Below the pieces are notes generated by a model. It ran no database searches, was not told the origin of the DNA, and was given only the letters and a program-made list of their open reading frames with translations. A stretch of DNA of 49,186 nucleotides from Methylococcales bacterium. GTDB taxonomy: Bacteria; Pseudomonadota; Gammaproteobacteria; Methylococcales; Methylomonadaceae. The stretch is taken from contig JAUYBJ010000278.1 in assembly GCA_030693155.1 (NCBI GenBank), forward strand, positions 1 to 49,186, read 5' to 3'. Below, piece by piece: positions 3,688 to 34,730 of the stretch. Every line of letters begins with the position of its first letter. Positions within the stretch are counted from its first letter, which is position 1. Both the position numbers and the translations under genes were made by a program.

Positions 3688-3714
3688 TTGAGGATTGTGC
3701 CTGAAAAAGCAGTA

Positions 3715-3912
3715 GTCCACGAAAGGCACGAAAGGCACGAAAGGCACGAAAGGCACGAAAGGCACGAAAGGCACGAAAGGCACGAAAAAATCAAAAGCTG
3801 TCATTGGGAGTTAATGCAGGCAAGTCATTTCAAAAACACAGAGTTGGCTCACTACCAACGGTTACGCCCTTATTTTTTAATCTTTTTCGTGCTTTTTGTG
3901 TCTTTCGTTGAC
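3715..3912. repeat. Expanded palindromic element with CACGAAAGG microsatellite
   Basis: Seven full copies of the 9-base unit CACGAAAGG run from 3718 to 3780, with a partial eighth to 3787. The right end (3884-3912) holds an imperfect inverse of the same motif. A compact relative with arms TGTCCACGAA and TTCGTGGACA lies at 34657-34730. The left arm therefore looks like a dispersed palindrome whose inner unit has expanded in tandem. It fills most of the gap between the phosphatase operon and htpX. The frame reading through it encodes a His-Glu-Arg repeat, which I do not regard as a gene. Confidence 0.85.
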
Positions 3913-11537: not shown

Positions 11538-11564
11538 GTGGGCGCGATTTTAATCGCGCCTGCC
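11538..11564 (+). terminator. Palindromic repeat serving as pmbA terminator
   Basis: GGCGCGATT pairs with AATCGCGCC (11541-11549 with 11552-11560) around a two-base loop, 13 bases after the pmbA stop. The flanks GTGG and TGCC match other members of the GTGGGCGCGA palindrome family in this window. No strong T-run follows, so termination is inferred from position. Confidence 0.65.
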
Positions 11565-11678
11565 TATTATCACTGCTCTCTTCATACCCGCGCCATTATA
11601 GGCGTAAAATAGTGACAGCAATTTTCTAGCCAATAGCTGAAGCAATTGGACTCTTTTCAAATTCACAAAAAATTCCCC

Positions 11679-14600
11679 ATGCCCTCAGCCATTCAAACTT
11701 ATCTACAAGACATAGCCTGCCATTTACAAGCGGGCAATTCCACCGAACACACTCACCGCCCCGCGCTGCAAACTTTGTTACAAAGCATTTTGCCTGAGTA
11801 TCACATCACCAACGAACCGCGCCGTATTGCCTGTGGTGCGCCTGATTTTGAAATAGCCAAAGGCAGTGAACCGATAGGGCATATTGAAGCCAAAGATGTT
11901 GGCATTGATTTAAACAAAGTCCAAAAATCTGAACAACTGGCACGTTACACCGCCTCATTGAATAATCTACTCTTAACTGATTATTTAGAATTTCGCTGGT
12001 TTGTGAATGGCGAATACAAAGCCGATATGACGGTGAAATTAGCCGAACTGGGCAAAAATGGGGCATTAAAAATTTACCCTGAAGCATTTGACCGCTTAGA
12101 AAACTTATTTAAAAGCGTTGTTGAGTCGCAGATTATCACCCTGCGCAGTCCTGAAGAACTCGCTAAAAAAATGGCGCATATTGCCCGTTTAATGAATGAC
12201 GTATTGATTAAGGCTTACGGACAAGAAGACGACAACGGCAAATTACACGCGCAACTCAGCAGTTTTCGTGAAGTATTAATCGACACTTTATCAGTAGAAG
12301 AATTTGCCGATATGGTGGCACAAACCATCTGCTACGGTTTATTCACTGCCAAATGCAGCGCGATGAATGCCGAGTTTTCCCGTTTAACTGCTGTGCATTT
12401 CGTCCCCAAAACCAATCCGTTTTTACGGCAATTTTTCAATCAACTGGCAGGGATTGAACTAGACGAACGGCTGGTGTGGATGGTGGAACATTTAGTCGCG
12501 GTGTTAAACCGTGCGGACATCGGCGCGATTTTAGCTGATTTTGGCAAACGCACCCGCCGTGAAGATCCCGTCGTGCATTTTTATGAAACCTTTCTCGCTA
12601 ACTACGATGCTAAATTGCGCGAAGTGCGCGGCGTTTATTACACACCAGAGCCTGTGGTGTCTTACATCGTGCGCTCAGTAGATTTGATTTTAAAAAATCA
12701 ATTTGGTTTGCGGGAAGGTTTAGCCGATAGTTCACAAATCCCCACCAGTGGGAGCGACTTTAGTCGCGTTGACGTTGACTCCGCGACTAAAGTCGCTCCC
12801 ACAATGATACACAAAGTCCAAATTCTTGACCCAGCCACAGGTACAGGCACATTTTTATACGCGGTGATTGCACAAATTTACCAGCAAGTAACGAAAAGAA
12901 ATAACGGCTGCTGGTCGGATTATGTCTCTAAACATTTATTGCCGCGTGTGCATGGTTTTGAATTGTTAATGGCGGCGTACACCGTTGCGCATATCAAATT
13001 GAGCTTGCAACTCAAAGACTACGGTTATGATTTTAAAAGTGATGAACGCTTGCGGGTGTTTTTAACCAACACCTTAGACGAAGCCCACGGCAAACAAACC
13101 ACTTTATTATCGGAATGGTTATCGAATGAAGCCAACGCTGCCAGTAGTGTGAAACGCGATTCGCCTGTGATGGTGATTTTGGGCAATCCGCCGTATTCAG
13201 GTCATTCGGCTAATACGGGCGCGTGGATTAGTGATTTATTACGCAGTGCGGGTACTGCGGCTAATTATTTTCAAGTTGATGGACAGTCACTCAATGAACG
13301 TAATCCCAAATGGTTAAACGATGATTATGTGAAGTTTATTCGTTTTGCTCACTGGCGGATTATGCAAACGGGTTATGGGGTATTAGCGTTTGTCACTAAT
13401 CACGGTTATTTAGATAATCCGACCTTTCGCGGCATGAGGCAATCGTTATTGCAGGATTTTGACGAGATTTATATTTTAGATCTACACGGTAACAGCAAGA
13501 AAAAAGAAACCGCGCCCGATGGTTCAGTCGATAAAAATGTCTTTGATATTCAGCAAGGCGTGGCGATTGGGATTTTTATTAAACACCAACAGCCCATTAA
13601 AGGTGGGCGCGAATTTATTCGCTCAGTGGATGATAAAAGCGCGAATAAATTCGCGCCCACAAAAATACATCACGCACATTTGTACGGCGAACGCCAAAGC
13701 AAATACCAGTATTTAGCCGAGCAGGATATTAACACCACGGACTGGAAACCGTTAAAACCACAAGCCCCGTTTTATTTGTTTGTACCGCAAGATACGGATT
13801 TGTTGCCTGAGTATCAAGCGGGCTGGAAAGTGACTGAGATGATGCCTGTTAATGTGTTGGGCTTTCAAACCCACCGTGATGATTTTGCTATTGCGTTTGA
13901 AAAAGAAACTATCGTTAAGCGTATGCAGGACATGAGAGCAACCGACCTTTCTGATAGTCAGTTGCTTGAAAAATATGAGTTAAAGGAAAGTACCAGCTGG
14001 AAACTAGAAAAGGTCAGGAAATCACTTAGGAATTTAAAAAACTGGGAGAGTAATATAACGCAATGTCTCTATCGCCCTTTTGATACCCGTTATTGTTATT
14101 TTAGCGAAACCGTAATGGATAGACCAAGACGGGAATTACAGAGTCATGTATTAGGCAGGGAAAATTTACTTATAAACTTGACAAGAATTGTTAAGTTAAA
14201 CCATTGGCAACATTCGTTAGTGACCAATGTCCCTTCTACTGCAATTTGTATGGATACTAATGGTTCTTATGCTTTTCCACTCTACCTTTACCCCACCCAA
14301 CAAAGCAGCCTATTTGACCACGACCCAGACCACGACACCCGAAAACCCAATTTCTCCCCCGCATTCATCGCCGACTTAGAAACCCGTTTACAACTCACCT
14401 TCATACCCGAAGACAAAGGCGATTTTGAGCAAACCATCAGCGCGTTAGACGTATTCCACACTATGTACGCCGTCTTTCACAGCCCCACATACCGCACCCG
14501 CTATGCCGAATTTTTAAAAATGGATTTTCCGCGCTTGCCGTTAATCAGTGATAAAGCCCTGTTTAAACAACTGGCAGATTTGGGCGAGCAGTTAGTGAGT

Positions 14601-14930
14601 CTGCATTTAATGGACGGGAAGACAAACCAAGGTTTGTACGATAGTGAGCATTGTTTTCCGATAGCAGGCGATAATCTAGTAGAAAAAATCGACTACCAAG
14701 ACAACAAGATTTATATCAACAAAACCCAATACTTTGACTCTATAACCCCAGAACTGTGGGCGTTTCATATCGGCGGCTATCAAGTTTGTCAAAAATGGCT
14801 CAAAGACCGCAAAGGCAAACACTTAAGCTATGACGATTGCAATCATTATTTAAGCATTCTGGCAGCCCTTGAACACACACACACACTGATGCTCGCCATT
14901 GATGACATTCTGGTTTTTCCAATTCTGTAG
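11679..14930 (+). CDS. Single-chain type ISP/IIG-like restriction-modification enzyme
   Basis: Counting from the ATG at 11679 (1083 residues; an upstream TTG at 11646 in the same frame is less likely), the N-terminal part has a PD-(D/E)XK nuclease pattern: D56 in GAPDFEI, then E70 and K72 in IEAKD. An adenine-N6 methyltransferase follows, with motif I DPATGTGTF (about 384-392) and motif IV NPPYSG (about 502-507). The C-terminal third matches type ISP proteins in the target-recognition region and in the block FHIGGYQVCQKWLKDRKG. It is shorter than classical type ISP enzymes (about 1570 residues) and I see no helicase motifs between nuclease and methyltransferase, so it probably acts as a combined type IIG enzyme. 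Two palindromic elements interrupt it in frame (12748-12802 and 13603-13660) and a third degraded one lies at 14622-14637. No separate specificity or methylase gene adjoins it. Confidence 0.88.
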   Translation: MPSAIQTYLQDIACHLQAGNSTEHTHRPALQTLLQSILPEYHITNEPRRIACGAPDFEIAKGSEPIGHIEAKDVGIDLNKVQKSEQLARYTASLNNLLLTDYLEFRWFVNGEYKADMTVKLAELGKNGALKIYPEAFDRLENLFKSVVESQIITLRSPEELAKKMAHIARLMNDVLIKAYGQEDDNGKLHAQLSSFREVLIDTLSVEEFADMVAQTICYGLFTAKCSAMNAEFSRLTAVHFVPKTNPFLRQFFNQLAGIELDERLVWMVEHLVAVLNRADIGAILADFGKRTRREDPVVHFYETFLANYDAKLREVRGVYYTPEPVVSYIVRSVDLILKNQFGLREGLADSSQIPTSGSDFSRVDVDSATKVAPTMIHKVQILDPATGTGTFLYAVIAQIYQQVTKRNNGCWSDYVSKHLLPRVHGFELLMAAYTVAHIKLSLQLKDYGYDFKSDERLRVFLTNTLDEAHGKQTTLLSEWLSNEANAASSVKRDSPVMVILGNPPYSGHSANTGAWISDLLRSAGTAANYFQVDGQSLNERNPKWLNDDYVKFIRFAHWRIMQTGYGVLAFVTNHGYLDNPTFRGMRQSLLQDFDEIYILDLHGNSKKKETAPDGSVDKNVFDIQQGVAIGIFIKHQQPIKGGREFIRSVDDKSANKFAPTKIHHAHLYGERQSKYQYLAEQDINTTDWKPLKPQAPFYLFVPQDTDLLPEYQAGWKVTEMMPVNVLGFQTHRDDFAIAFEKETIVKRMQDMRATDLSDSQLLEKYELKESTSWKLEKVRKSLRNLKNWESNITQCLYRPFDTRYCYFSETVMDRPRRELQSHVLGRENLLINLTRIVKLNHWQHSLVTNVPSTAICMDTNGSYAFPLYLYPTQQSSLFDHDPDHDTRKPNFSPAFIADLETRLQLTFIPEDKGDFEQTISALDVFHTMYAVFHSPTYRTRYAEFLKMDFPRLPLISDKALFKQLADLGEQLVSLHLMDGKTNQGLYDSEHCFPIAGDNLVEKIDYQDNKIYINKTQYFDSITPELWAFHIGGYQVCQKWLKDRKGKHLSYDDCNHYLSILAALEHTHTLMLAIDDILVFPIL
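12748..12802. repeat. Palindromic element inserted in frame in the R-M gene (copy 1)
   Basis: A perfect 21-bp stem runs from 12748-12768 to 12782-12802, with a 13-base loop; the arm begins GTGGGAGCGACTTTAGTCGC. It is read through in frame and encodes GSDFSRVDVDSATKVAPT, just before methyltransferase motif I, where related proteins vary in length. The peptide resembles the one encoded by copy 2 at 13603-13660. Confidence 0.92.
13603..13660. repeat. Palindromic element inserted in frame in the R-M gene (copy 2)
   Basis: A perfect 20-bp stem (13603-13622 with 13641-13660; arm GTGGGCGCGAATTTATTCGC) encloses an 18-base loop. Read in the same phase as copy 1, it encodes GGREFIRSVDDKSANKFAPT, between a GVAIGIFIK strand and the segment HAHLYGERQSKYQYL, probably a surface loop. 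Arms of related sequence occur outside genes at 11538-11564 and 19723-19748. Confidence 0.92.
14622..14637. repeat. Short palindrome in the 3' part of the R-M gene
   Basis: ACAAACC and GGTTTGT flank AA. The sequence matches the core of the 28-bp palindrome at 8126-8153 except for the centre. It is read in frame as part of KTNQGLYD, at a place where related proteins vary. It could be an eroded insertion or chance. Confidence 0.45.
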
Positions 14931-16012: not shown

Positions 16013-16228
16013 GTTGGGTTAGCTATCGAGACTGTGAAAGTATTAATTATGCCAAACAACCGTCATTCTGGCATGGATGGTAAGCGCATGATGACGAACA
16101 AAATTGTAAAATGCGCTGCTTCACATCCCTGTGACTGGATTCCAGCATCCATGCTGGAATGACGGCTTTTTCGGCGAAACTGTGGTTCTAACTAGAATAC
16201 GTTCAAAGTCTCTATAGCGTAACCCAAC
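16013..16228. mobile_element. MITE-like element, copy 1
   Basis: The ends GTTGGGTTAGCTATCGAGACT (from 16013) and the reverse complement of 16200-16228 (GTTGGGTTACGCTATAGAGAC) are imperfect terminal inverted repeats of about 30 bases. Inside lies a second inverted pair: GTCATTCTGGCATGGATG near 16061 and CATCCATGCTGGAATGAC near 16147. No coding frame is convincing. Copy 2 at 24242-24504 shares the interior and the inner part of the terminal repeats (GAGACTGTGAAAGTATT). It fills the gap between pyrD and thiO. Confidence 0.75.
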
Positions 16229-18794: not shown

Positions 18795-19736
18795 ATGAAA
18801 ACTCTTTATCCTGAAATCCTTCCTTTTAACAGCTTTTTTCTCGACACTAACAGTCAGCATCAGGTTTATGTTGAGCAAAGTGGTAATCCTGACGGTATTC
18901 CTGTGGTTTTTTTGCATGGAGGTCCTTGTTCAGGCACTAAACCGCATCATCGCCAGTTTTTTAATCCAGAACGCTATCATATTATTCTGCTGGATCAACG
19001 CGCTTGCGGCTTATCCTTGCCGTTTGGTGAGCTGGAAAACAATACCACCCAAGATTTATGTGAAGATTTGGAACGCATACGCGCACAACTCAATATCAAG
19101 CAATGGCTGGTTTTCGGTGGTTCGTGGGGCGGGGCATTGGCATTATTGTATGCACAACAGCATCCCGATAAAGTCATTGGTTTGATTATTCGTGCGGTAT
19201 TTCTGGCGCGGCAAGCCGATTTAGACTGGTTTTCCAGAGACGGAGCAGGGCGTATTTATCCCGAACAATGGCAACGCTTGATTAGCAGTATTCCGAATGC
19301 CAGCCACAACAATTTTGTACAGGAATGTTATGACGCTTTATGGGATAAAGATGAAGTCACACAACGGCGAGTCGCTAAAGAATGGTTGGCATGGGGTGCG
19401 CAAGTTGCCTTAGGCAATGATTACCAGCCGACCGATGAACACGTTACTGAAAAAATGCTCAAGCAAGCGCGTATGGAACTGCATTATGCTCAGCATCATT
19501 ATTTTGTGCGTGAAAACCAGATTCTGGATAATTGCCACCTGTTAGCAACTATTCCCACCGTGATTATTCACGGGCGCATGGATTTAGTCTGCCCTATCGA
19601 AGCGGGAATGCGCCTGCATCAAGCCATGCCTCATGCAGAGTATATTATTCTGCCCAATGCAGGGCATATCGCTCAAGGCGAAGACATGATAAACGCACTG
19701 GTATCGGCAACTGACCAGTTTGTAGGCGCGAATTAA
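18795..19736 (+). CDS. pip: Proline iminopeptidase
   Basis: This alpha/beta-hydrolase peptidase removes N-terminal proline from peptides in the cytosol. The 313 residues match family S33 in length. Visible are the oxyanion motif HGGPCSG (41-47), DQRACGLS (68-75; most members have DQRGCGRS), the nucleophile elbow GGSWGG with Ser110, the acid Asp263 in HGRMDLVCP and His291 in AGHIAQGE. The last codons and the stop are supplied by a palindromic repeat (19726-19745), which suggests that the original C-terminus was altered by its insertion. Confidence 0.93.
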   Translation: MKTLYPEILPFNSFFLDTNSQHQVYVEQSGNPDGIPVVFLHGGPCSGTKPHHRQFFNPERYHIILLDQRACGLSLPFGELENNTTQDLCEDLERIRAQLNIKQWLVFGGSWGGALALLYAQQHPDKVIGLIIRAVFLARQADLDWFSRDGAGRIYPEQWQRLISSIPNASHNNFVQECYDALWDKDEVTQRRVAKEWLAWGAQVALGNDYQPTDEHVTEKMLKQARMELHYAQHHYFVRENQILDNCHLLATIPTVIIHGRMDLVCPIEAGMRLHQAMPHAEYIILPNAGHIAQGEDMINALVSATDQFVGAN

Positions 19737-19748
19737 TTCGCGCCCACA
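19723..19748. repeat. Palindromic repeat overlapping the pip stop codon
   Basis: GGCGCGAATTAATTCGCGCC (19726-19745) is perfectly self-complementary and sits in GTA...CAC flanks, matching the GTGGGCGCGA family. The pip stop TAA (19734-19736) lies at its centre. It separates the convergent pip and carbamoyltransferase genes. Confidence 0.88.
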
Positions 19749-24241: not shown

Positions 24242-24504
24242 CGGGCTTCCACGCTCCAGAGGCTGTAAAAGTATTCATAATTTCAATCAAATATTCGTTA
24301 TTAGACGCAACAATATTCAAACTCGTCATTCTGGCATGGATGCCAGAATCCAGTGCCAAGGATGGTAAGGGTATGATTATAAATAATATTATACTTTATA
24401 CTGTTTCACATCCATGTGACTGGATTCCAGCATCCATGCTGGAATGACGGTGTTTTTTAGCTGAATTTTGAATACTTTCACAGTCTCTCCAGCGTGGAAA
24501 TCCG
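24242..24504. mobile_element. MITE-like element, copy 2
   Basis: The ends 24242-24277 and 24469-24504 are imperfect inverted repeats of about 36 bases sharing TTCCACGCT and GTATTCA. The interior carries GTCATTCTGGCATGGATG and CATCCATGCTGGAATGAC, as in copy 1 at 16013-16228. It has no credible gene and occupies most of the 412-base gap between the protease-nuclease and the PAS-GGDEF-EAL gene. Without a transposase it would depend on a helper element. Confidence 0.8.
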
Positions 24505-24557: not shown

Positions 24558-26648
24558 TTATTGAATGTGCGTTACTAATAATGCTTCAAATTGCGCAATT
24601 GGCACGGGTTTACTGAACAGATAACCCTGACAAAGCGGGCAATTATTGTCTTCCAAAAAGGCTCGTTGCTCCTCGGTTTCTACGCCCTCAGCGATGACTT
24701 CCATGTCTAAATTGTGCACCATGCCAATGATGGTTTGTATAATCACCATATCGGAGGGTTTTATGTCAATATTTTGAACAAAGGACTTGTCAATTTTGAG
24801 TTGGTTAAATGGCAGGCTGGTCAAATAACTCAGGGATGAAAAACCTGTGCCAAAGTCATCCATCGAAAAGTGCACACCCATTTTTTTGAGTGTGTTCATT
24901 TTTACAATGGTGTCATTCACATTATCAATGACCAGACTTTCTGTCAGTTCTAGCTTGAGCCGTGCGGGGTTGATGCCGGTATCGCTGAGTATTTGCTGTA
25001 CTTGACTCACAAAGTCAGCCTGATGGAACTGCCGCACACTGACATTGACAGCCAGTTGCAAATGCTGGGTATGGGTATTGTTTTCCCAGTTTTTTAGCTG
25101 GGAGCAGGTGGTCTGTAAAACCCATTGCCCGATGGCGGTTATCAAGCCAACCTCCTCAGCCAGTGGAATGAACGCATCGGGGAACATTAAACCCTGTTGC
25201 GGATGTTGCCAGCGAATTAAGGCTTCTGCACCGATAATGCGTCCGTCATGGGTGCTTTGTGCTTGGTAATACAGCTCGAACTGGTTTTCTGCCAGAGCCT
25301 GCCGCAAGTCAGCTTCCAGTAACACCCGCGCATTGATGCTAATCTGCATTTGCGGATCAAAGAAGCACAGCGCATTACGTCCTGAAAATTTAGCCGCATA
25401 CATGGCAATATCTGCCTGCTTAATCAGTTCATCTATCTCTTGCCTGTTATTGTTAAACACCGTCACACCGATGCTGGAACTACTCAGGTAATCCTGTGTG
25501 CTAAGAAGATACGGTTCATTAAGAAGCTTCAAAATTTTATGCCCGATAACATCCGCTTGCGCCGCTGCTTCAAGGGCTTCTTCGCTTAACTCAGTGAGTA
25601 GCACGACAAATTCATCGCCACCCAAACGGGCAACAGTATCCACTTCGTGCACACAAGAATTCAGGCGTTGCGCGACTTGTTGTAACAATAAGTCGCCAAC
25701 GTTATGCCCTAGGGTGTCGTTTAAGATCTTGAAATGATCTATATCAAGAAACAGTAGTGCGGCGTGTTCACCATTACGATGATTGGTTGCGAACACCAAT
25801 TTTAAGCGTTCGCGCAGTAATCGCCGATTCGGCAATCCCGTGAGTGGATCATAAAATGCCAGACGTTCAACTTCTTCCAGTGCTAGTTTAGTGATGCGAA
25901 TGTCGGTGAATGTGGCTACATAATTGGTCACTACACCCTTGTTATCATGCACGGCAGTGATAGTGAGATATTCTGGATAGATGTCGCCTGATTTAGCCTG
26001 ATTATAGATTTCGCCTTTCCAGTGCCCAGTATGATGAATACTTTCCCACATGGCGGCGTAAAAGTCGGCGTGATGAAGACCTGATTGCAAAAGTTTCGGG
26101 GTTTTACCGATAATTTCTCCAGATGAATAACCGTTGATATGCTCGAAGGCGGAATTTACTCGCAGAATCAGGGTATTGGCATCAGTTACCATCATCCCTT
26201 CTTGAGATTCAAACACAGTGGCGGCGATGCGCAATTCGTCATTAATTTTAATCAGTTCTAATGCCCGCTGTTCCTTTTCGTGGTTTTGAAAGGCGAGTTC
26301 TTTATTGGCAATGAGTAATTCGGCAGCGCGTTTTTCTTTCTCTGCGTTTTGAAAGGCGAGTTCTTTATTGGCAATGAGTAATTCGGCAGCGAGTTGTGCT
26401 TTCTCTTCATTTTGAAAGGCGAGTTCTTTATTGGCAATGACTAATTCGGCGGCGCGTTTTTCTTTCTCTTCATTTTGAAAGGCGAGTTTTTTAATGGCAA
26501 TGACTAATTCAGCGTCGAGTTGTGCTTTCTCTTCGTTTTGAAAGGCGAGTTTTTTATTAGCAGCAAATAACGCTTCAACTAACTCATTTATTGAGGTGTT
26601 AAGCAGTGAGTATTCTAAATGTTGCTCATTAAACACGTTTTGATTCAT
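24558..26648 (-). CDS. PAS-GGDEF-EAL cyclic-di-GMP signalling protein with 21-residue repeats
   Basis: The protein (696 residues) begins with a coiled coil of five 21-residue repeats starting LAFQN (34-138). A PAS domain follows (about 140-258), then GGDEF (about 262-425; motif GGDEFVVL at 343) and EAL (about 440-690; EALIRW near 475, ELTES, DDFGTGFSS, EGVETEEQ). Both catalytic signatures are intact, so it could make and degrade c-di-GMP. The usual inhibitory RxxD site before GGDEF reads HEVD (334-337), so product inhibition may be lost. No membrane segment is evident, implying a cytosolic sensor. It may be a single-gene unit. Confidence 0.93.
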   Translation of the reverse strand: MNQNVFNEQHLEYSLLNTSINELVEALFAANKKLAFQNEEKAQLDAELVIAIKKLAFQNEEKEKRAAELVIANKELAFQNEEKAQLAAELLIANKELAFQNAEKEKRAAELLIANKELAFQNHEKEQRALELIKINDELRIAATVFESQEGMMVTDANTLILRVNSAFEHINGYSSGEIIGKTPKLLQSGLHHADFYAAMWESIHHTGHWKGEIYNQAKSGDIYPEYLTITAVHDNKGVVTNYVATFTDIRITKLALEEVERLAFYDPLTGLPNRRLLRERLKLVFATNHRNGEHAALLFLDIDHFKILNDTLGHNVGDLLLQQVAQRLNSCVHEVDTVARLGGDEFVVLLTELSEEALEAAAQADVIGHKILKLLNEPYLLSTQDYLSSSSIGVTVFNNNRQEIDELIKQADIAMYAAKFSGRNALCFFDPQMQISINARVLLEADLRQALAENQFELYYQAQSTHDGRIIGAEALIRWQHPQQGLMFPDAFIPLAEEVGLITAIGQWVLQTTCSQLKNWENNTHTQHLQLAVNVSVRQFHQADFVSQVQQILSDTGINPARLKLELTESLVIDNVNDTIVKMNTLKKMGVHFSMDDFGTGFSSLSYLTSLPFNQLKIDKSFVQNIDIKPSDMVIIQTIIGMVHNLDMEVIAEGVETEEQRAFLEDNNCPLCQGYLFSKPVPIAQFEALLVTHIQ
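26250..26550 (-). repeat. 63-bp tandem repeats encoding the coiled coil
   Basis: About five 63-base units, each containing GGCGAGTT(C/T)TTTATTGGCAA on the plus strand, encode the LAFQN repeats of the PAS-GGDEF-EAL protein. The units are highly similar at DNA level, implying recent duplication. Boundaries are approximate. Confidence 0.88.
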
Positions 26649-34648: not shown

Positions 34649-34656
34649 GATTTTTT

Positions 34657-34730
34657 TGTCCACGAAAGGCACGAAAAACACGAAATTAAAGGTGCAGATG
34701 TTTTCGTGCCTTTTGTGTTTTTCGTGGACA
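34657..34730. repeat. Compact CACGAAAGG palindromic element
   Basis: TGTCCACGAA (34657-34666) pairs with TTCGTGGACA (34721-34730). The inner parts repeat CACGAAA-type motifs in opposite orientation on the two arms. It lies between the convergent nfeD-like and AEC genes and may terminate both. It is the short relative of the expanded element at 3715-3912. Confidence 0.85.

Follow-up and report, generated by a model that had tools for sequence, protein, structure and literature searches.

The closest described relatives of the elements considered here are the GTAG-tagged REPs of Di Nocera et al. 2013 (PMC3733652), which include intragenic dimers. In the available sections of that paper the REPs carry a GTRG tag and a short stem, form head-to-head dimers and are linked to RAYTs; dimers inserted in frame code for 20-30 residues, two insertions may occur in one gene, genes of DNA metabolism are among the hosts, and flexible loops or linkers are suggested to render the insertions harmless. 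The present locus shares the structural features, the in-frame coding, the double insertion and the type of host gene. Like the REPINs and RAYTs described in PMC3116915, it also belongs to a system in which inverted REP pairs stand beside a RAYT gene; however, in the part of that report available, REPINs were sought in extragenic DNA, whereas the dimers of interest here lie inside genes. A third precedent is provided by the Rickettsia palindromic elements RPE-1 to RPE-7, which sit in ORFs without loss of frame and in solvent-exposed positions, different elements sometimes occurring near each other in one gene (PMC3767692, from the excerpts available).

The window – by which we mean the whole stretch of 49,186 nucleotides that was analysed, from a Methylococcales bacterium that is probably a methanotroph – is contig C4 of a 3.7-Mb genome (G000) in 281 contigs. 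It contains two frame-keeping palindromes within a single gene. The element works like an RPE but is not one: RPEs, as characterised in the same excerpts, are 100-150 bp long and belong to another sequence family (PMC3767692), whereas the window copies measure 55 and 58 bp. The features of the locus are as follows.

11538..11563, no strand assigned: extragenic REP of the same family as the intragenic copies, upstream of the host gene
11646..14930, + strand: type IIG/ISP-like restriction-modification gene of 1094 aa (Type_ISP_C, E 9.9e-86; MmeI_Mtase)
12723..12818, + strand: linker 1 (residues 360-391), 32 aa
12748..12802, + strand: intragenic REP dimer, copy 1 (residues 368-386)
12748..12768, + strand: left REP arm of copy 1, GTGGGAGCGACTTTAGTCGCG
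12782..12802, - strand: right REP arm of copy 1, inverted
13575..13682, + strand: linker 2 (residues 644-679), 36 aa
13603..13660, + strand: intragenic REP dimer, copy 2 (residues 653-672)
13603..13622, + strand: left REP arm of copy 2, GTGGGCGCGAATTTATTCGC
13641..13660, - strand: right REP arm of copy 2, inverted
19722..19747, no strand assigned: REP providing the TAA stop codon for the prolyl aminopeptidase gene at 18795-19736

The arms of copy 2 are 20 nt long, 100% complementary and separated by an 18-nt loop; those of copy 1 are 21 nt long, again 100% complementary, and enclose a 13-nt loop. Both copies are read in frame within the one open frame of 1094 codons (11646-14930, +) and encode the peptides SGSDFSRVDVDSATKVAPT and GGREFIRSVDDKSANKFAPT. 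Codon position 2 is occupied in each copy by the G that opens the left arm and its GTGGG, and likewise by the C that closes the right arm. A preliminary description of this DNA had reported a perfect 20-bp in-frame stem at 13603-13660 in the same phase as copy 1, had aligned the two peptides, and had noted that the palindrome at pip gives a stop. Our coordinates and codon positions agree with the first statement, the alignment is correct and the arms do share their phase, and the prolyl aminopeptidase ORF (TIGR01249) indeed ends within the element at 19722-19747.

A critical issue is how two such elements came to be tolerated in one gene. Very probably, the answer is insertion of REPINs into tolerant loops, filtered by frame and by stop codons. 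Two REPIN copies of different subtypes would have inserted independently into two loops that tolerate extra residues, and would have persisted where the frame was kept, no stop codon arose and a flexible loop was added. The shared peptide would then require no common insertion, since near-identical arms are read in one of two mostly stop-free phases.

Evidence that the palindromes belong to a REP family came from their distribution. With up to 3 mismatches allowed, the arm pattern matched 22 + 22 (44) sites in the 3.7-Mb genome against 3 + 2 (5) for the reversed control pattern, and thus the palindrome is not a product of chance; a broader pattern, at no more than 1 mismatch, gave 45 matches against 3 for its control. 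The family is present in all 8 of the genomes of the genus examined. Some 31 elements occur in the G000 stretches, some of them beside RAYT transposase genes, and 72 head-to-head dimers were counted in 198 stretches from the 8 genomes. Each arm comprises a GTRGG tag (GTGGG or GTAGG) and a self-complementary stem, for example GCGAAT-TT-ATTCGC: the GTRG tag beside a short palindromic stem is that of GTAG-type REPs and REPINs, as is the occurrence of dispersed, multi-copy, head-to-head dimers. Nine Y1_Tnp matches were found in the genome, seven of them above the cut-off. One such RAYT ORF (G000:C174:324-644) has same-family REPs on both sides (186-255 and 721-782), the flanking arrangement characteristic of RAYTs, and another Y1_Tnp ORF (C262:17774-18127) adjoins REPs of a sister type. 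Read by eye, the C174 ORF contains what we take to be the HIH (HxH) and tyrosine motifs of a RAYT. Judged by sequence, both window copies are REPINs, that is, two GTRGG-tagged REPs placed head to head; the REPIN is presumably a small non-autonomous mobile element that would be moved by the RAYT transposases of the genome.

The similarity of the two copies raises the question of whether one gave rise to the other. They lie in the same gene, are read in the same phase and have related arms; had duplication or gene conversion produced copy 2 from copy 1, the shared phase would record one event. Yet the arms differ (GACTTTAGTC versus GAATTTATTC), each matches other genomic copies exactly, and the loops and flanks of the two copies are unrelated. 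An origin of this kind is barely credible.

Repeats of other kinds are also present in the window. Two copies of a further element (16054-16171 and 24324-24456), 81% alike over 103 nt and with inverted ends CGTCATTCTGGCATGGATG, resemble a CGTC-tagged repeat; a tandem repeat of 63 nt occupies 26206-26583 within the ORF at 24558-26648; and a 9-nt unit, CACGAAAGG, forms runs at 3709-3805 and 34652-34694.

The reading phase of the REPINs deserves particular attention. The census covered 198 stretches from the 8 genomes, a set that does not include 3 G004 sites and 4 three-mismatch G000 sites, and these stretches contained 207 elements. Of these, 31 were in-ORF, defined as lying in an ORF of at least 150 aa with 20 codons on each side of the element. 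Dropping 15 single arms (including the ATP-grasp arms L058 and L372 and the SucA matches L194 and L234) and merging 6 orthologous dimers (5 in G002, and L395 in G004, which stayed among the 52 'other' dimers) left 10 independent dimers, two of them doubtful: L226, without a domain, and L246, upstream of a CopB domain. Of the 8 dimers supported by Pfam, two lie in the window gene and one each in an MmeI-like enzyme, an N6_N4_Mtase gene, a second Type_ISP_C gene, HypF, a radical SAM (YgiQ-like) gene and a MOFRL (glycerate-kinase-like) gene. The 5' arms of these 8 are divided equally between phase 1 (4/8, with peptides such as VGATLVA/VGANLFA) and phase 2 (4/8, GRREFIR/SGSDFSR), with none of the 8 in phase 3; addition of the two doubtful dimers gives 5:5:0.

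The expectation comes from the other dimers. When the 52 distinct dimers outside the intragenic count were read in all six frames, open frames numbered 38/104 in phase 1, 75/104 in phase 2 and 9/104 in phase 3 (30/64, 42/64 and 6/64 in an earlier set of 32 dimers). On these counts stops alone predict the 5'-arm pattern, and under the stop filter only, the probability that two copies share a phase is 0.48. The preliminary description had proposed that survival in coding DNA may select one stop-free phase, and had suggested tabulating the phase of all intragenic copies. The tabulation bears out one half of this, in that stop avoidance limits the phase; the other half is not supported, the 5' arms being equally in phases 1 and 2, as expected from stops alone. 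Single-phase selection is thereby rejected as the main cause.

A related possibility is that the peptide is the target of selection, a phase with a soluble product being the one that is kept. The 3' arms point in this direction: they lie in phase 2 in 8/10 dimers as against 41% of open frames (p 0.015). In addition, three dimers (the two of the window and L160) have sequences that, in their present form, leave phase 2 and at least one other phase open; phase 2 is used in 3/3 of them, and single 3' arms in ORFs, some of which are chance matches, use it in 6/8. However, half of the 10 intragenic dimers are of length 2 modulo 3, and the excess goes with length since such dimers are nearly forced into phase 1 and into this reading of the 3' arm. 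When expectations are matched by length class (50%, 13% and 85%) they agree with what is seen (3/3, 0/2 and 5/5). L052 and L246, moreover, are open only in phase 2 in their orientation, and the 5' arms of all independent dimers stand at 4:4:0 or 5:5:0. We regard peptide selection as a decidedly unlikely explanation; a weak preference for phase 2 is possible.

Two observations made during the census concern other genes. REP-like arms in the ORFs of L214 (2293-2312), L263 (2483-2600) and L367 (2465-2484) encode similar peptides (GREFIR/GRELIR) with a similar tail; the ORFs are putative, and in two of them a HupE domain lies upstream of the arm. The REPIN of the MmeI-like gene differs in length by 6 nt between L057 (G000:C40) and L169 (G002:C139), an in-frame change between relatives.

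The tolerance of the window gene for its REPINs must be viewed in light of the enzyme that it encodes. The listed start is a TTG at 11646, although an ATG at 11679 may be the true one. A Type_ISP_C specificity domain was found (E 9.9e-86), as type ISP restriction-modification requires; no helicase family was detected in the Pfam scan of the protein. Type ISP enzymes, of which LlaGI is an example, are defined by a helicase in the same chain. The combination seen here by Pfam, of methylase and specificity domains in one chain without a helicase, invites comparison with type IIG. The nearest solved structures, by Foldseek and phmmer, are DrdV (7lo5, type IIG) and LlaGI/LlaBIII (5ffj, 4xqk, type ISP), from which the host protein differs in having no helicase domain found and in a poor whole-chain superposition (TM 0.32-0.37). 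Residues that are invariant over a 62-sequence alignment – D67, E81, K83 and N514-P515-P516-Y517 – are all kept in the window protein; the first three, we assume, fit the PD-(D/E)XK motif, and the enzyme is presumably active.

These residues bear on the suggestion that the inserts are neutral only since the gene has become superfluous or has already lost its function. That an orthologue in a sister species (G006) is frame-broken, at a DUF559 insert, lends this some colour, as does the fact that restriction-modification genes, which a cell can usually do without, harbour 5/8 of the supported dimers. But the window gene is open over its 1094 codons and keeps the invariant residues, and REPINs are found also in the HypF, radical SAM and MOFRL genes. 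We think it unlikely that a dead gene explains the inserts.

An AlphaFold2 model of the host protein, built with 62 sequences, has a mean pLDDT of 81. The two lowest interior 10-residue means are those of residues 371-380 (46) and 651-660 (44), followed by 711-720 (49). The two lowest-confidence blocks fall within the inserted residues 368-386 and 653-672, and the inserts are flanked by predicted strands (364-366/387-389 and 639-646/673-678). The preliminary description had asked for a model that would reveal whether both peptides are surface loops: both do occupy the two lowest-confidence interior stretches, and a position at the surface may be expected. Both peptides are thus probably in flexible loops, which would be exposed and in which added residues would be neutral. 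Weighing phase against stop codons and modelling the structure are steps that go beyond the available sections of PMC3733652.

Comparison with homologues shows how unusual the two linkers are. Linker 1 is 32 aa long in the window protein as against 13 aa in the nearest insert-free homologues; linker 2, which joins the methylase core to the specificity domain, is 36 aa long as against 17-20 aa in the closest insert-free homologues and 17-23 aa in most. A survey of 84 sequences of the enzyme family, that of the window included, was made with an inverted-repeat score cut-off of 10. Where linker 2 was at least 26 aa long, palindromes were present in 9/9 sequences (8 by score, L020 by eye); where it was shorter, a score of at least 10 was reached in 0/75 (2 linkers of 25 aa, 73 under 24 aa), a set in which L081 (G006) is counted only since its reading ends at the DUF559 insert. 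The survey hosts include Thiotrichaceae, Gallionella and Rhodanobacteraceae as well as the family of the window genome, and by eye the linker 2 palindromes fall into about seven families:

the REP of the window
CCCTCACCCC/CCCCTCTCCC: L068, L069 and L073 (one MAG), and L120
GGAGTCCAAAACAAG: L021
CGTCATTCCCGCGAAAGCGGG: L078
GGAGTGCA: L019
GTAGGGGC: L020
the RPEPVQG repeat: L120

The same-site case in the available sections of PMC3733652 is a single one, with different REPs in two recB genes; here about seven families share one loop. Linker 1 follows a weaker pattern, with a long inverted repeat in 3/19 loops of at least 30 aa and 2/65 shorter loops. The gene of the sister species G003 and G006 adjoins pyrD, as the window gene does, in line with orthology; its linker 1 has the same GATAGTTC start followed by a different palindrome, CCCTCACCCC..CCCCTCTCCC. 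The PmbA/TldD neighbour upstream of the window gene was not found in the G003 and G006 stretches examined, so that synteny is one-sided only. Inverted repeats with arms of at least 20 nt in the homologue ORFs fall in the two linkers in 5/5 cases, two being the window's own. A scan of all homologue ORFs for inverted repeats of at least 12 nt was set aside as too noisy (99 versus 54 in codon-shuffled controls). The presence of unrelated palindromes in the same loops of relatives indicates that what makes the site a hotspot is the permissive loop of the protein and not the REP sequence.

It might be argued that the inserted loops alter the specificity of the enzyme or regulate it, and are kept for that. 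Linker 2 does separate the methylase core from the specificity domain, and restriction-modification genes are frequent among the carriers (5/8 dimers). The inserts in the same loop are nonetheless unrelated in sequence and range from about 7 to 70 extra residues, for which tolerance is a better fit than one function; a functional role is thus very improbable.

Other loops of the same enzyme hold further repeats, which encode the peptides RPEPVEG/RMAQGER, PAPLPGGEG and SPKLVLD/SPKQVLD. They are located near residue 240 in G003:C87 and L068, and, in G003:C164 and G006, in a C-terminal loop around residue 990.

Linker 2 of the sister species contains something more. In both G003 and G006 a DUF559 ORF lies between palindromes at this position (G003:C87, G006:C8). 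The G003 ORF is in frame to the end of its contig, the other part of the gene being on another contig, unjoined; in G006 the N-terminal part of the broken gene is in another frame. A known member of the DUF559 group is VsrA of Caulobacter, a Vsr-like endonuclease of the PD-(D/E)XK superfamily that is reported, in the portion of the paper available, to be responsible for an SOS response when cells lack the ScmA methylase; in that text 'palindrom' and 'inverted repeat' are absent (PMC12907096). No link between DUF559 and palindromes was found in the literature searched under the name DUF559.

The association with palindromes extends beyond this enzyme. Inverted copies of a hairpin plus tail, with a flank-to-flank score of at least 30, flank 23/30 of the best-scoring DUF559 loci returned by the genus and family searches (L149, at a contig end, and L151, a weak match, were unscored), and 15/30 of the best-scoring loci of a phylum sample, in which two more score 29; some of the loci belong to closely related species. 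Controls gave 0/25 and 0/30 for outward-shifted windows and 0/160 for other places (0/215 in total). In a motif scan of these 38 repeats, 22 showed a tail directed only at the gene, 1 a tail directed away from it, 1 tails in both directions and 14 a tail in neither. The repeat type may follow the lineage of the gene, although the tree test was strong only when the labels were assigned manually. On the DUF559 tree the C-run repeat type requires 1 change when labels are set by hand after seeing the repeats (0/500 shuffles as low, mean 5.8; support 23), and 5 changes with automatic labels (1/500 as low, mean 7.6).

Long-frame DUF559 ORFs offer a view of the hosts. Thirteen were inspected, chosen mainly for their long frames, and 7 were domain-scanned; in 5/7 DUF559 lies in frame within a host protein with host domains on at least one side (L149, L276, L290, L318 and L315). 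The cases are:

L149: host of the window enzyme family
L276 and L290: host HsdS
L318: host HsdM
L315: DUF559 cassette splitting the glutamine-amidotransferase part of an asparagine synthase
L310: MurB ORF with DUF559 at its N-terminus

In L311 the domain scan found no host domain. A binning artefact is unlikely for L315 since it comes from a 3-contig genome. The DUF559 copies of L148, L290, L315 and L318 form one tree group (support 92, not starred); a search for further in-gene members of this group gave one clear new member, L331, outside a gene. Across 121 genomes, CCCTCACCC..CCTCTCCC sites accompany strong DUF559 matches (28/41 versus 27/80, p 0.0005; six or more sites, 13/41 versus 8/80, p 0.005), counts that lend weak support because the cassettes' own ends inflate them and the genomes are related.

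We offer, tentatively and at somewhat below even odds, the proposal that DUF559 endonucleases and GA-rich hairpin-plus-tail palindromes constitute an overlooked mobile pair that parallels RAYT and REP. The nuclease would cut or nick the palindromes and its gene would be copied into the break through palindrome homology – homing into repeats – so that it could live in host proteins much as an intein does, but without splicing; the loop at 13575-13682 would be one landing place. A tolerant loop may first receive one of the palindromes resident in a genome, and a DUF559 nuclease bounded by palindromes may later home into such a palindrome; palindromes that already sit in frame in tolerant loops could be the means by which a DUF559 gene enters host proteins, which are often restriction-modification enzymes. 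Alternatively, DUF559 may be passenger DNA trapped between repeats that recombine.

REP dimers read in frame, double insertion into a single gene, hosts in DNA metabolism and the argument from loops are already known from the available sections of PMC3733652. The 84 sequences surveyed here add that every long expansion of linker 2 is accounted for by palindromic repeats, which are thus a real source of new in-frame protein sequence. DUF559, for its part, is a testable candidate to explain both the spread of common bacterial palindromes and the presence of nucleases inside restriction-modification proteins.
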